From the NCBI RefSeq assembly GCF_022201045.2, contig NC_068561.1:18788501-18852500 (forward strand): a stretch of 64,000 nt of DNA. The letters run 5' to 3'. Under the pieces are notes generated by a model that saw nothing but the letters and a program-made list of their open reading frames with translations, ran no database searches and was not told the origin of the DNA. Positions within the stretch are counted from its first letter, which is position 1; each line of letters starts with the position of its first letter. A program made the translations under genes and the position numbers. The stretch comes from Citrus sinensis. Lineage: Eukaryota; Streptophyta; Magnoliopsida; Sapindales; Rutaceae. Shown piece after piece: positions 1-63,737 of this stretch.

Positions 1-1205
1 CATTGACTTCCTCTTGCAACTTCAACTTGATATCTTCCAACTCAGAAACTTTAGCGTGAAGATTTTCTTTAGCGTCTGCAAGTAGATTATCAAGGGCGGA
101 AATTTCCTCTTTTGCCTGAGATTCTGATGCCTTTATGAGGTCCAATTCCTGAGTTAGATTAGTAATAAGAGCTTCCTTTGAAGAGAATCTTTGCTCCAAG
201 TCCAAGAGTTGTAATTTTGAAAGTCCCAACTCTTCCTGAATTGCAGAAATTTCTGTGTTGCTTCTCTTAAGCTCTTCTTCAACTTTCTCCTTCTCAGAAA
301 TCTTTTCATTCAGGCCCTTGAGCTCTTCTTGTAGGGAAGCCATCTGACCCTCCACTTCTTTTGCACTCACATTCGCAGTTTCAAGCAGCCTCTCAAACTC
401 CAACGCCCTCTGTGACTCAGATTCTGCATGTGAACCACTTTGCTTGTGCAACTCCTCAAACTTCCTAGCCTCATCCACAGAACATTGTAACTTATGCTCC
501 AACTCCGGCAATCTTGACCTTGATTGTTCAATTTCAAGACTTAGACCATCAAATGCTTCTTTCACTTCAGCCAGCTCCTTACGCTTTGCTTCTTCAGCTT
601 GCAAAGCCTCTTTCATAGCATTGAGCTCTGAATTATATTTCTCCCCAGCTTCAACAATCTGCTCTTGGAATTTCTTTTGACCAATTTCAAGCTCTGCACA
701 TTTCTTCCCACTTTCCTCCAGCTTCTCTTTTGAAACTAAAACATCATCCTGTAGTCTTGCATTTTCAATTTCAGCATTCTTCAATGCAGTAGCTGCTCTC
801 TCCAATTCAATCTCAAGTTCTTTCACCTTCTCATTGGCTTCCAACAATTCTCTGCTCGAACTGCTCGAGCTTCTATCAACTACAGATGGCTTGTCGTCCT
901 CCTCTGCAGCTGCTGGCTCAGCCATATGAGAAACTTCCTTCACATCCAATGCTTCCTTCTCCACTTTTATAAATTCTGCATCCAATGCATTTTCTTCCTC
1001 TTCTTTCTTTCCTTCTTTACCTACTTGTGGCAAGCCTCCATTTGTTTCCTGCAACACGAGAAATTATCAAAATCAATTATCTACGGTTGAAAAATAAAAT
1101 CCTGAATGTTTGTTTGCGTTTTTTTTTTTAAACCTTAATTGGATCAATGTCCTCAACTGCTTTCATCACAGGGACTTCTGAACCCACTTGCGTCTCTTCT
1201 TCCAT
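1..1205 (-). CDS. Long coiled-coil protein, PICC/PICL type (5' part only)
   Basis: Two exons are visible, 1205-1134 and 1048-1. Exon 1 has exactly 24 codons, so exon 2 stays in frame, and the gene runs off the left edge. The visible 373 residues begin MEEETQVGSEVPVMKAVEDI, then an acidic stretch, a serine run (VVDRSSSSS), and from about residue 95 an almost unbroken Lys/Glu/Leu-rich heptad coiled coil. I take it as an orthologue of Arabidopsis PICC (At2g32240) or PICL (At1g05320), long coiled-coil proteins anchored by a C-terminal membrane segment and linked to basal immunity. The anchor is not in the window. The family call rests on the N-terminal wording and on the FRS2 and CCT genes further right, which flank PICC in Arabidopsis. 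Database names such as myosin heavy chain-like reflect only the coiled coil. Confidence 0.8.
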
Positions 1206-3654
1206 GTTTAAATCAATCTTCACTTAAACAGACCAGTCTCTCTGTGATTTTGACAAGATTATAGTCACATTACACATGTTAGAACAAAGGACATAAATAA
1301 TAGCACGTGCAATTGGGTGTCTGAAAAATGCATACAGAATAACAGACCATTCATCACGCACCTAGCCGGGCCTATTTGAGGCTGTTTCCAAAGACAATAT
1401 CAGCATAACTCAACCCATTTTACACCACCAAAAAAAAATAAAAAACTAAGGAAAATATTTTTTTTTACCCTTTTCCTTGATTGACCGATTGGAGTTTATG
1501 TTGTCCTGACCATGACATCATTCATCATCAATACAATATACACATATGAAGTAAAAAATGTACATATTTATATATGTGAAAATGTACATCATTCGAACTA
1601 CGCATCTTTATAAATTGTATTGATCATGATAATTATGTAATTTGATTCTTTATGTGAGACAACAATAGTAGCTCGTTCTACAAGGCCTAATCGAATCATA
1701 GGCCCAACTACAATCTTGAAATTCTAGGCGCCCAACAACAGGCTGTTTTATTTTGTCTTCTAATTTTAACCTGACGTGGGAAGTTTTGGCATCTTTTCCT
1801 AACCTTGATTCCCTGTTTTTAATGTCTGTTAAATTAATTCAAATATTCAATCATCTGTATAACTTTAAGCTCGTCACCAAATTTGGAAACTTTTATGGAC
1901 TCAAAAATGAAAAAACTGAAAAAAATTAGAAGCTTTATGGGTTGTAGTTTCCGGCTGCCAATTAAGGAATCGTAAGATTTAGGGAACCCGGCGGGTCGAC
2001 AAGCAGCCCAATTAATGATTGCCCTAGACCGGGCCCAAATTTCCCATGGATGCCCCACCATTGACAAAGACAATGTATTATATAAGAAAAAGAAAAATAT
2101 TTCTTCAGTGACATGTATTATTAATGGGTCCAAGGGTCAATAGGCTTTTAGTTGCTTGTACAATTTTTAACTTACCAGATCGATCTTAAGACTTAACAGC
2201 GAAAAAAATTATTAATCTAATGATATTAGAAAAATATAACTTGTGTACAAATCTAGGGATATTACAGATCCTAATCATGGAAGAATAATTCCTGGGAATG
2301 AATAATTGGTCCATATGATCTAAAATCACATGAGAGTTGGCATTAATCGATCATGTGACAACGCATGCCATGTGAGACCATTTTACTTGGTGGGTCCCAA
2401 TTACTCCTACGGGGACATACAAGACAAAATTACCTATCAATCCCAAATTCTAAACTGATTCATGATTCAATTCATCACCATAAATCAAGAAAAGAAAAAC
2501 AATACTCCGGTTATGGGGCTTTCGGCCATTCCATCATCAACCCAATTTACTAAGATTAGAATTGCCTTTTTATTTCTTTTCAAAAAAAAAAAAAAAAAAA
2601 AAGAATTGCCGTTTATTTTGCAAATACACCAAAAAGAAAGCAAGAGAAATTGGAGCCCACTAAAGTAGGCAAGCTATCCCTTTACCTTATTTTTAGTTCA
2701 ATTTCAAAGTTGAAGCGCGTGACAGCTCAATTTTGTACGCTTTTTATATGGTTATTATCAAGCTTTCTATTTTCCCATTAACAACGTAATTATCATTTTC
2801 TAAGGTTATGTTACGGCACGAAGATCCCGTAACATTGCAAACACGATAGTTTATAATATAAAATATCACACTTGTAATTATAAAATAATAATTTATGTCA
2901 AACCTATAATATTAATTAAAAATTATACAATTACAAGCTTGAGTATATTTTTCCTCTATTTATTTATTCATTTTATAATTTGTAATTTGTTTGTTTCTTC
3001 CGCTGCACTAATTAACCTGAGCTAGAAATTGCTAATGCTTGCAAACAAAATAAATAGATAAACGAAGCATATGTTTTAGATCACATTAAGTTAAGATCAT
3101 AAGTTACATTTCAAAGTCTTCAAATTAAAAGATAAAACCATCAGATTGCTATCGCTAATCCTCGCTCACTTTTCAGCAAGAAAAATATTTTTAAACTGAG
3201 AACTAATTTTAAAAAAAAAAAAAATTGCTTTGAATGATATTGACCGATCGATCGAGAGAACGAATCGAAGATCAAAATATGTTATGTTCGTCCGATCAAA
3301 TAATATCTAAATAACAAACCGAAGAACTAATTCTAAAACGTTTCTTCATTTCTGTTTCCAAATTACACTTCCGAAAATACAGTGAAATCAATTTAAAAAA
3401 AAAATGGAAGCATCAAAATCTAAACTCACGAAGTGGATCACTGATTTCAATCATCATATAATCAAACGAAGATCACAGCTTTAATATTTCATCGCAACAC
3501 AGAAAACAGAAACAAAAACGACAAAGCAATAAAACTAAAACTGAAAGCAGAGAAAACAGAGGCAACAGTTTCAGAAAACAGAGTGAAGACAGCTCAGACT
3601 CAATCAAGCGTATAAATAAATAAATAAATAAATGGAAGGAATAAGAGATTGCTT
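1206..3654. other. AT-rich non-coding DNA, probably the leader intron of the coiled-coil gene
   Basis: No open frame of convincing composition is present. The stretch holds poly-A/T runs (for example near 2581-2600 and 3211-3223), an (AAAT)n run near 3612-3632, and one isolated GCGCGTG (2715-2721), which is the reverse complement of the FHY3/FAR1 core site CACGCGC. Its most likely role is the intron between the leader exon near 3700 and the coding start at 1205. Confidence 0.4.
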
Positions 3655-62685: not shown

Positions 62686-63737
62686 ATGAGTAACGCAAAT
62701 TCGAATAATTCAAATTCGACTGATACGGCGCCGTCTGATCGCCCCGTTAGAGTCTACGCCGATGGGATCTACGATCTTTTCCATTTCGGCCACGCTCGCT
62801 CCCTTGAACAAGCCAAGAAATCGTGAGTATTTTTCGCCTTTCAATTTATCATTAATTATTATTTTATTCAAAAAAAATTATTTTATTGCGTTTCACTTTT
62901 GTTCTTCAGTTACTTTTTATTTTATTCATGTGCCTTTTTTTTTTTTTGATCTAGTGTTATAAGAAGCGAAACAAAGCATCTCTTATAGAAATTAACTTTT
63001 TCCCGTTTTGTCCTTAGTTTGATCTGTGTATGTTTCCGTGTACTGCTTCTTTTGCGTTTATTTTGTTGAATATATTAATTATTTTTTTTTCATTTGTGTT
63101 CATATTTTGGTGATTCTATTAGTTATGTGATTCATTTTTCTGGTTTCATTCGTTTTGATGTGCTATATCGTTTCGTAAGGATTTGTGTTACAAAAATAGT
63201 GATTACATTGGTAATGATTAATGTGTGAGTGAAAAATTATTTCTGTTTAGGAGGAATCCTGTTTTGAATTTTGTTCAAAGTGTTATTTTTATTTGTTTAC
63301 ATTCTATTTGTGTTCAAAGTGTTATTTATTTATTTATTTATTTTTGGCATTGTATTTAGGTTTCCAAACACCTACCTCCTTGTCGGATGCTGCAATGATG
63401 AAACTACTCATAAGTTTAAGGGCAAAACTGTTATGACAGAGGATGAGCGCTACGAATCTCTTCGTCATTGCAAGTATGCCATGCTAACTTAAGACTCAAT
63501 TTTGAAGTATTTATTTCTCACTGTGATGTTTTCCAGTGTGTTACGGATTTCATGTTTCTATTTGAATGACTTATCTTTCATTTTCTAACATGGACGTTGC
63601 TCTTTTATTTTATTTTTATTTTTATTTTTTTGGGGGCACAGATGGGTGGATGAAGTCATCCCCGATGCACCTTGGGTGGTCACGCAAGAATTTCTTGACA
63701 AGCACCAGATTGACTTTGTGGCTCATGACTCCCTTCC
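62686..63737 (+). CDS. CCT1: Choline-phosphate cytidylyltransferase (first three exons)
   Basis: Makes CDP-choline from phosphocholine and CTP, the rate-setting step of the Kennedy pathway to phosphatidylcholine. Exons in the window: 62686-62822, 63360-63473, 63642-63737; the next intron (GTAAGG at 63738) runs off the right edge. The 115 visible residues start with a Ser/Asn-rich stretch ([18 protein letters not shown]) and continue [20 protein letters not shown], which holds the CTP-binding HxGH motif (HFGH), then [31 protein letters not shown] and FVAHDSLP. All splice joins keep the frame. CCT1 (At2g32260) and CCT2 (At4g15130) both lie in the matching Arabidopsis segments, so I cannot choose between them by position; the symbol follows the FRS2 neighbour. 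Confidence 0.93.

Follow-up and report, generated by a model that had tools for sequence, protein, structure and literature searches.

Three intact FAR1-MULE-SWIM genes stand head to tail in a single row of about 15 kb in the window analyzed here, a 64,000-nucleotide stretch of the Citrus sinensis genome (C6:18788501-18852500), whereas the Arabidopsis genes they resemble, FHY3, FAR1, and FRS2, lie on three different chromosomes. Reading from left to right, this trio (plus strand) is preceded by a PICC-like gene (minus strand, cut by the window edge), a GABA transaminase (GABA-T)-like gene (minus), and a DHHC gene (minus), and followed by a CYP97B-like gene (minus), a VQ gene (plus), a pectinesterase (PME) gene (plus), and a choline-phosphate cytidylyltransferase (CCT) gene (plus, also cut), confirming the gene row claimed by the initial annotation, with neighbor classes assigned by Pfam. 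We think it quite likely that the row is an ancient tandem array and that Arabidopsis has fractionated it, keeping a different member in each duplicated copy; this proposal of the initial annotation is supported by exon-only similarity within the trio, high synonymous divergence (dS), a duplicate block on contig C2, the gene tree, and the published record for grape and soybean. FHY3 and FAR1 themselves most likely began as neighbors, not as the product of a recent genome doubling. The row, the C2 block, the within-genome tree, and the high divergence come directly from our own analysis; the locus numbers in grape, and the finding that FHY3 and FAR1 have different partners in soybean, come from print.

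Trio gene 1 (FHY3-like, 26140 to 29373), gene 2 (FAR1-like, 32525 to 36050), and gene 3 (FRS2-like, 37657 to 40928) are all on the plus strand, with long open frames of 750, 733, and 726 amino acids (stop to stop), and the FAR1, MULE, and SWIM domains score above the Pfam cut-off in all three, as in the Arabidopsis FHY3/FAR1/FRS subgroup I. Behind each first exon follows a multi-exon C-terminal tail, with 6 short exons in genes 1 and 2 (7 coding exons each) and 7 in gene 3 (8 coding exons); 17 of the 19 tail pieces as cut start right after an AG acceptor, and all 19 precede a GT donor or a stop. Adjacent, on one strand, and built to a common plan, the three genes have the features of an array. 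When the region 24000-41400 is aligned to itself (blastn, plus strand, E up to 1e-5), 8 alignments result and every one is exonic, 6 at 65-70% identity and the other 2, from short tail exons, at 78-80%. Within the trio dS is 1.31-1.76. The dS values are too high for dating, and for some of the gene pairs compared in this study dS is not computable. With gene 1 as the sole query, no relative could be confirmed among solved structures, prokaryote contigs, or viral contigs.

We searched the whole genome (299.7 Mb, 11 contigs) with each trio gene, scoring 60-62 of 650-864 candidates per query. The close relatives are identical for all three queries: the other two trio genes, a gene at C2:26577060-26580760 (the C2 gene), C2:2249112, two neighboring genes on C7, and the fragments C3:45853 and C6:16679, both disrupted; among the candidates scored, other long matches reach at most about 42% identity. 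In the genome trees three outgroup rows of our choice fall outside a group made up of the trio, the C2 gene, C2:2249112, and the C7 pair (support 99-100); we label this group subgroup I by reference to approximate Arabidopsis sequences.

A clade exclusive to the trio, which the initial annotation would have read as a lineage-specific duplication, did not occur; instead the C2 gene joins gene 3. Specifically, i) in a tree of first exons, gene 3 and the C2 gene group at 95/96 and genes 1 and 2 at 82/87, and approximately unbiased (AU) tests reject a trio-only clade (p 0.034) as well as placement of the C2 gene with gene 1 (p 0.009) or with gene 2 (p 0.008); ii) the pairing of gene 3 with the C2 gene persists at 90-96 in three variants of this tree (two far outgroups dropped, a simpler model, subgroup I only), and the trio-only clade has AU p values of 0.021, 0.031, and 0.044; iii) once tail exons are included, support for this pairing is 100/99 and AU p for the trio-only clade falls to 0.004; and iv) the number of coding exons, 8 in gene 3 and the C2 gene and 7 in genes 1 and 2, gives the same split as the tree. 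Because gene 3 has the C2 gene as its sister and the trio-only clade is rejected, the FRS2 type was already distinct from the FHY3/FAR1 type when the block carrying the C2 gene was duplicated; FRS2 thus split from FHY3/FAR1 before that duplication, which probably belongs to the gamma triplication.

The C2 gene does not stand alone. A CCT paralog, a VQ paralog, and this one subgroup I gene lie within 70 kb of each other (C2:26.51-26.58 Mb); by identity, the CCT paralog most similar to the window's gene is the one here (C2:26511427-26512772, 79-88% in three exons; 88 of 96 amino acids identical, dS not computable), and the closest of three other VQ matches to the window VQ is C2:26517980. The VQ and CCT genes on C2 keep the mutual order and strand they have in the window, and the probability that VQ and CCT paralogs would both fall by chance no more than 70 kb from one of three FRS loci is, by a crude estimate, 2e-6. 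The window and the C2 region are a duplicate block of three gene pairs (CCT, VQ, and FRS), the FRS gene being inverted. If, as we take it, citrus has undergone no genome doubling since gamma, then the C2 block dates from gamma, and we consider this old genome triplication its most likely source. The gamma triplication took place about 117 million years ago (PMC4814485).

Two small features of this part of C2 may be mentioned here. An isolated SWIM-like FRS fragment (C2:26574256-26574501) lies about 3 kb upstream of the FRS2-type C2 gene; at 39-47% to the window genes it is no clear remnant of any of the trio genes. The sequences at 57585-57686 and 61766-62045 of the window are repeat-like and match C2:26574440-26574760.

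The ties to Arabidopsis are of two kinds. Taking printed locus numbers together with those we assume for PAT19/20, POP2, PICC, and CYP97B3, all three Arabidopsis groups follow the order of the window, with chromosome 3 reversed. The printed numbers are those of FHY3 (At3g22170), FAR1 (At4g15090), and FRS2 (At2g32250) (PMC5715367), of CCT1 and CCT2 (PMC3507003), and of VQ22 and VQ27 (PMC4691074). We also built a separate tree to which approximate sequences of four Arabidopsis proteins, not database records, were added (839, 827, and 796 letters, and one partial sequence of 636). In it FHY3 is the partner of gene 1, FAR1 of gene 2, FRS2 of gene 3, and FRS4 of C2:2249112, each at 100/100 on these inexact rows, while the FHY3 and FAR1 clades are only weakly supported as sisters (63/57). 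The pairing is internally consistent and serves as a good lead, but it does not amount to an independent test. The one-to-one grouping with Arabidopsis genes that the initial annotation had looked for is seen with these approximate rows, and the separate soybean partners of AtFHY3 and AtFAR1 agree with it (PMC13026280).

In that soybean study AtFHY3 groups with GmFRS7/12 and AtFAR1 with GmFRS23/49, with bootstrap values over 85 (PMC13026280), so that the FHY3-FAR1 split predates the parting of soybean and Arabidopsis. In grape the authors name VvFRS6 FHY3 and VvFRS7 FAR1 (PMC12112247); VvFRS6, 7, and 8 (Vitvi03g01239, Vitvi03g01243, and Vitvi03g01244, chromosome 3) are consecutive among grape FRS genes because the authors number by chromosome position (PMC12112247), and we infer that VvFRS8 is FRS2. 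With separate partners in soybean and in grape, the split between FHY3 and FAR1 is older than those lineages. It is hard to regard Arabidopsis FHY3 and FAR1 as true duplicates of its own genome doubling and the trio as having expanded in tandem separately, within the citrus lineage, even though neighbors on Arabidopsis chromosomes 3 and 4 do look like block duplicates (VQ22 and VQ27 from print, and presumably a DHHC pair): the trio combines high dS with similarity confined to exons, the trio-only clade is rejected within this genome, AtFHY3 and AtFAR1 have different soybean and grape partners, and the tree with approximate Arabidopsis rows rejects the scheme overwhelmingly. We judge it very improbable.

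The synteny comparison suggested by the initial annotation did not show the general lack of synteny in other species that would have counted against it, and the species differ. Grape shows the three genes in a row, by published order and locus numbers; the available text of the grape paper stresses segmental duplication and does not discuss the row (PMC12112247). Strawberry shows it in part: FaFAR1-41, -42, and -43 (848, 835, and 896 amino acids) form a cluster of three adjacent genes, the first close to AtFHY3, as in the window, -41 being the only one identified, while the groups -30/-31 and -34/-35/-36 encode shorter proteins not identified there as FHY3-like (PMC13299393). Potato does not show it, with FHY3 (StFRS14) on chr07 and FAR1 (StFRS15) on chr08, and StFRS14 is reported to be syntenic with two Arabidopsis FRS genes (PMC10347153). 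In the available text on the walnut tandem groups, no tie to FHY3 or FAR1 was found (PMC10634098).

The potato arrangement could suggest that the genes were dispersed first and gathered later at one locus in some lineages, and here too other subgroup I genes are dispersed, C2:2249112 for example having, within about 99 kb on either side, only the few kinds of window match given below. Such secondary clustering would have to account for three close locus numbers in grape and one such cluster in strawberry, for a trio on one strand with the same tail, and for Arabidopsis locus numbers (in part assumed) that fit the window order; we find it scarcely credible.

As a whole explanation, then, we favor the following history of an ancient row and its fractionation. 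In an early core eudicot, or earlier still, a single FRS gene would have undergone tandem duplication together with its intron-bearing tail; a first tandem step may have produced an FRS2-type and an FHY3/FAR1-type gene, and a second step FHY3 and FAR1. The row GABA-T, DHHC, FHY3, FAR1, FRS2, CYP97B, VQ, CCT would have been present, neighbors included, before the rosids and grape split. In this genome the row would have stayed complete on C6, whereas its copy on C2 would have been thinned to CCT, VQ, and a single FRS2-type gene. The later doublings in Arabidopsis would have copied the row, each copy losing different members, so that FHY3 ended up on chromosome 3, FAR1 on chromosome 4, and FRS2 on chromosome 2, each beside its own subset of the original neighbors. 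Genome doublings are known to be followed by the loss of different members of a tandem array. Given such fractionation, FHY3 and FAR1 would sit in duplicated blocks although, as tandem paralogs, they are older, an instance of hidden paralogy.

How old the complete trio is we can say less firmly. That it was complete before gamma, so that FHY3 and FAR1 are a hidden-paralogy pair which block methods would mistake for doubling duplicates by virtue of opposite losses in Arabidopsis, has in our view an even chance. The trio might instead be old but younger than gamma, having arisen in early rosids plus grape, with the C2 gene arriving by another route; the C2 gene and the adjoining 20 kb show just one complete FRS gene, on the opposite strand relative to VQ and CCT, and the pair is not together in potato. 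Such a history is unlikely, since the sister of the C2 gene is gene 3 rather than the trio as a unit, and the paralogs most similar to CCT and to VQ are both no more than 70 kb from it.

We wish to stress that a number of points weigh against the ancient row and its duplicate block as we reconstruct them. Within the genome, i) the FRS gene on C2 is inverted with respect to VQ and CCT when compared with the window; ii) among the neighbors searched (CCT, VQ, DHHC, and PICC), only CCT and VQ have paralogs in the C2 block, the best paralog of the DHHC stretch 14931-16004 being on C5 (C5:38567153) and no PICC paralog being found genome-wide (the single match is its own locus); iii) by single-match score an uninterrupted 40% CCT relative at C6:18388869-18389174 outranks the C2 exons; iv) the tails were added to the tree after the C-terminal likeness of gene 3 and the C2 gene had been seen, and without tails the AU p values are only 0.021-0.044; v) sisterhood of genes 1 and 2 is moderate across all trees (bootstrap 63-88, SH-aLRT, an approximate likelihood ratio test, 57-92); and vi) placement of the FRS4-like C2:2249112 is not settled, so the trio may also have yielded dispersed genes. 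The dating of the block leans on our presumption about citrus genome doubling, and the Arabidopsis rows are inexact, the FRS2 row having 796 letters against the 807 that we take to be its length. Among other species, the potato genes are on separate chromosomes; only one of the three strawberry tandem groups has an FHY3-like member (PMC13299393); and in grape the identity of VvFRS8 does not come from the authors, one sentence assigns VvFRS6 to subgroup IV, three numbers lie between VvFRS6 and VvFRS7, and the locus numbers are not strictly positional (VvFRS4 is 01475 and VvFRS5 00266) (PMC12112247).

Two of the other subgroup I loci deserve a word. The C7 genes (C7:29341779-29370832) are a near-identical pair 27 kb apart with dS 0.003, one copy having an in-frame stop; judging from the sequence, this is a very recent duplication. 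C7 may be a third homeolog, as a VQ paralog (C7:29041711) lies about 300 kb from the pair. C2:2249112 was considered as a homeologous block and rejected: the surrounding 200 kb matches the window only in FRS, P450-motif, and repeat-like sequence and in one 15-residue match.

The neighbors of the trio were classified from the window letters, in which Pectinesterase, p450, CTP_transf_like (CCT), DHHC, and VQ score above the Pfam cut-off; Pfam gives gene classes only, and the ortholog names PICC, GABA-T (POP2), and CYP97B are those we assume by likeness to Arabidopsis proteins. The PICC-like coiled-coil gene (1 to 1063, minus strand) is represented by its 3′ end, the last 354 codons, with a TPR_MLP match below cut-off; it extends beyond the window, and the frame stays open for 1103 amino acids in the genome. 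At 6776-6871 on the plus strand, adjoining the GABA-T-like gene, is a short exon missing from the initial annotation, encoding a small hydrophobic peptide and followed by a GT donor; it has no Pfam match, and we take the peptide to resemble a small conserved plant membrane protein. The GABA-T-like gene (minus strand, approximate limits 7992 to 12291; exon peptides at 8367-8447, 10776-10871, 11078-11176, and 11637-11711) reaches the Aminotran_3 cut-off only with the exon peptides joined (E 6e-16); singly, one of three matches Aminotran_3, at E 0.00055, below cut-off. The DHHC palmitoyltransferase gene (14931 to 18145, minus strand, the 5′ end possibly extending further) appears to comprise three stretches: the DHHC domain (E 8e-8) is at 17080-17253, and the stretches 14931-16004 and 17645-18145, which we tentatively assign to the same gene, have no Pfam match.

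To the right of the trio, the CYP97B-like cytochrome P450 gene (41548 to 48449, minus strand) has its 5′ end at an ATG and a p450 match of E 3e-13 at 41548-41769 alone and E 7e-80 on joined peptides. One of its introns contains two nested hAT-type elements (45168-47106), the outer (45176-47098) flanked on both sides by the 8-bp duplication CTAGAAAG and the inner (45375-46361) by CCAATTTC on both flanks, with a hAT dimerization domain at 45710-46138. The VQ-motif gene (52035 to 52736, plus strand) has a VQ match of E 4e-9, and the pectinesterase gene (58293 to 61175, plus strand, limits from open frames) has Pectinesterase matches of E 5e-18 and 1e-13 on two exons. Of the CCT gene, the first three exons (62686 to 63738, plus strand) precede the window end, and CTP_transf_like matches two single exons (E 2e-4 and 8e-5) and the joined peptide (E 1e-25); the uninterrupted CCT relative on C6 lies about 0.46 Mb away. 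The initial annotation had described the row as holding all the neighbors that Arabidopsis keeps: the row itself stands, and "all" is too strong, for the Arabidopsis intervals presumably also hold an IQD gene, a LigB-like gene, and a carboxypeptidase, for which the window was not searched.

We found no prior statement of FHY3, FAR1, and FRS2 as an old tandem row in the available portions of the openly licensed literature, and a 2026 review of the family (PMC13306707) contains neither "tandem" nor "synten". Nor, within the same portions of that literature, did we find FHY3 and FAR1 described as genome-doubling duplicates, the view that the initial annotation took to be usual.

FHY3 and FAR1 are the textbook redundant pair of phytochrome A signaling. 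If our explanation is true, their division of labor would be much older than the Arabidopsis genome doublings allow, and the null expectation for the pair would shift; species that have the row (this genome, grape, and probably strawberry) would permit tests of regulation common to the neighbors; and FRS2, which has been little studied, would become the third member of the same ancestral module. The case would also serve as a warning that syntenic pairs can predate the block that carries them.

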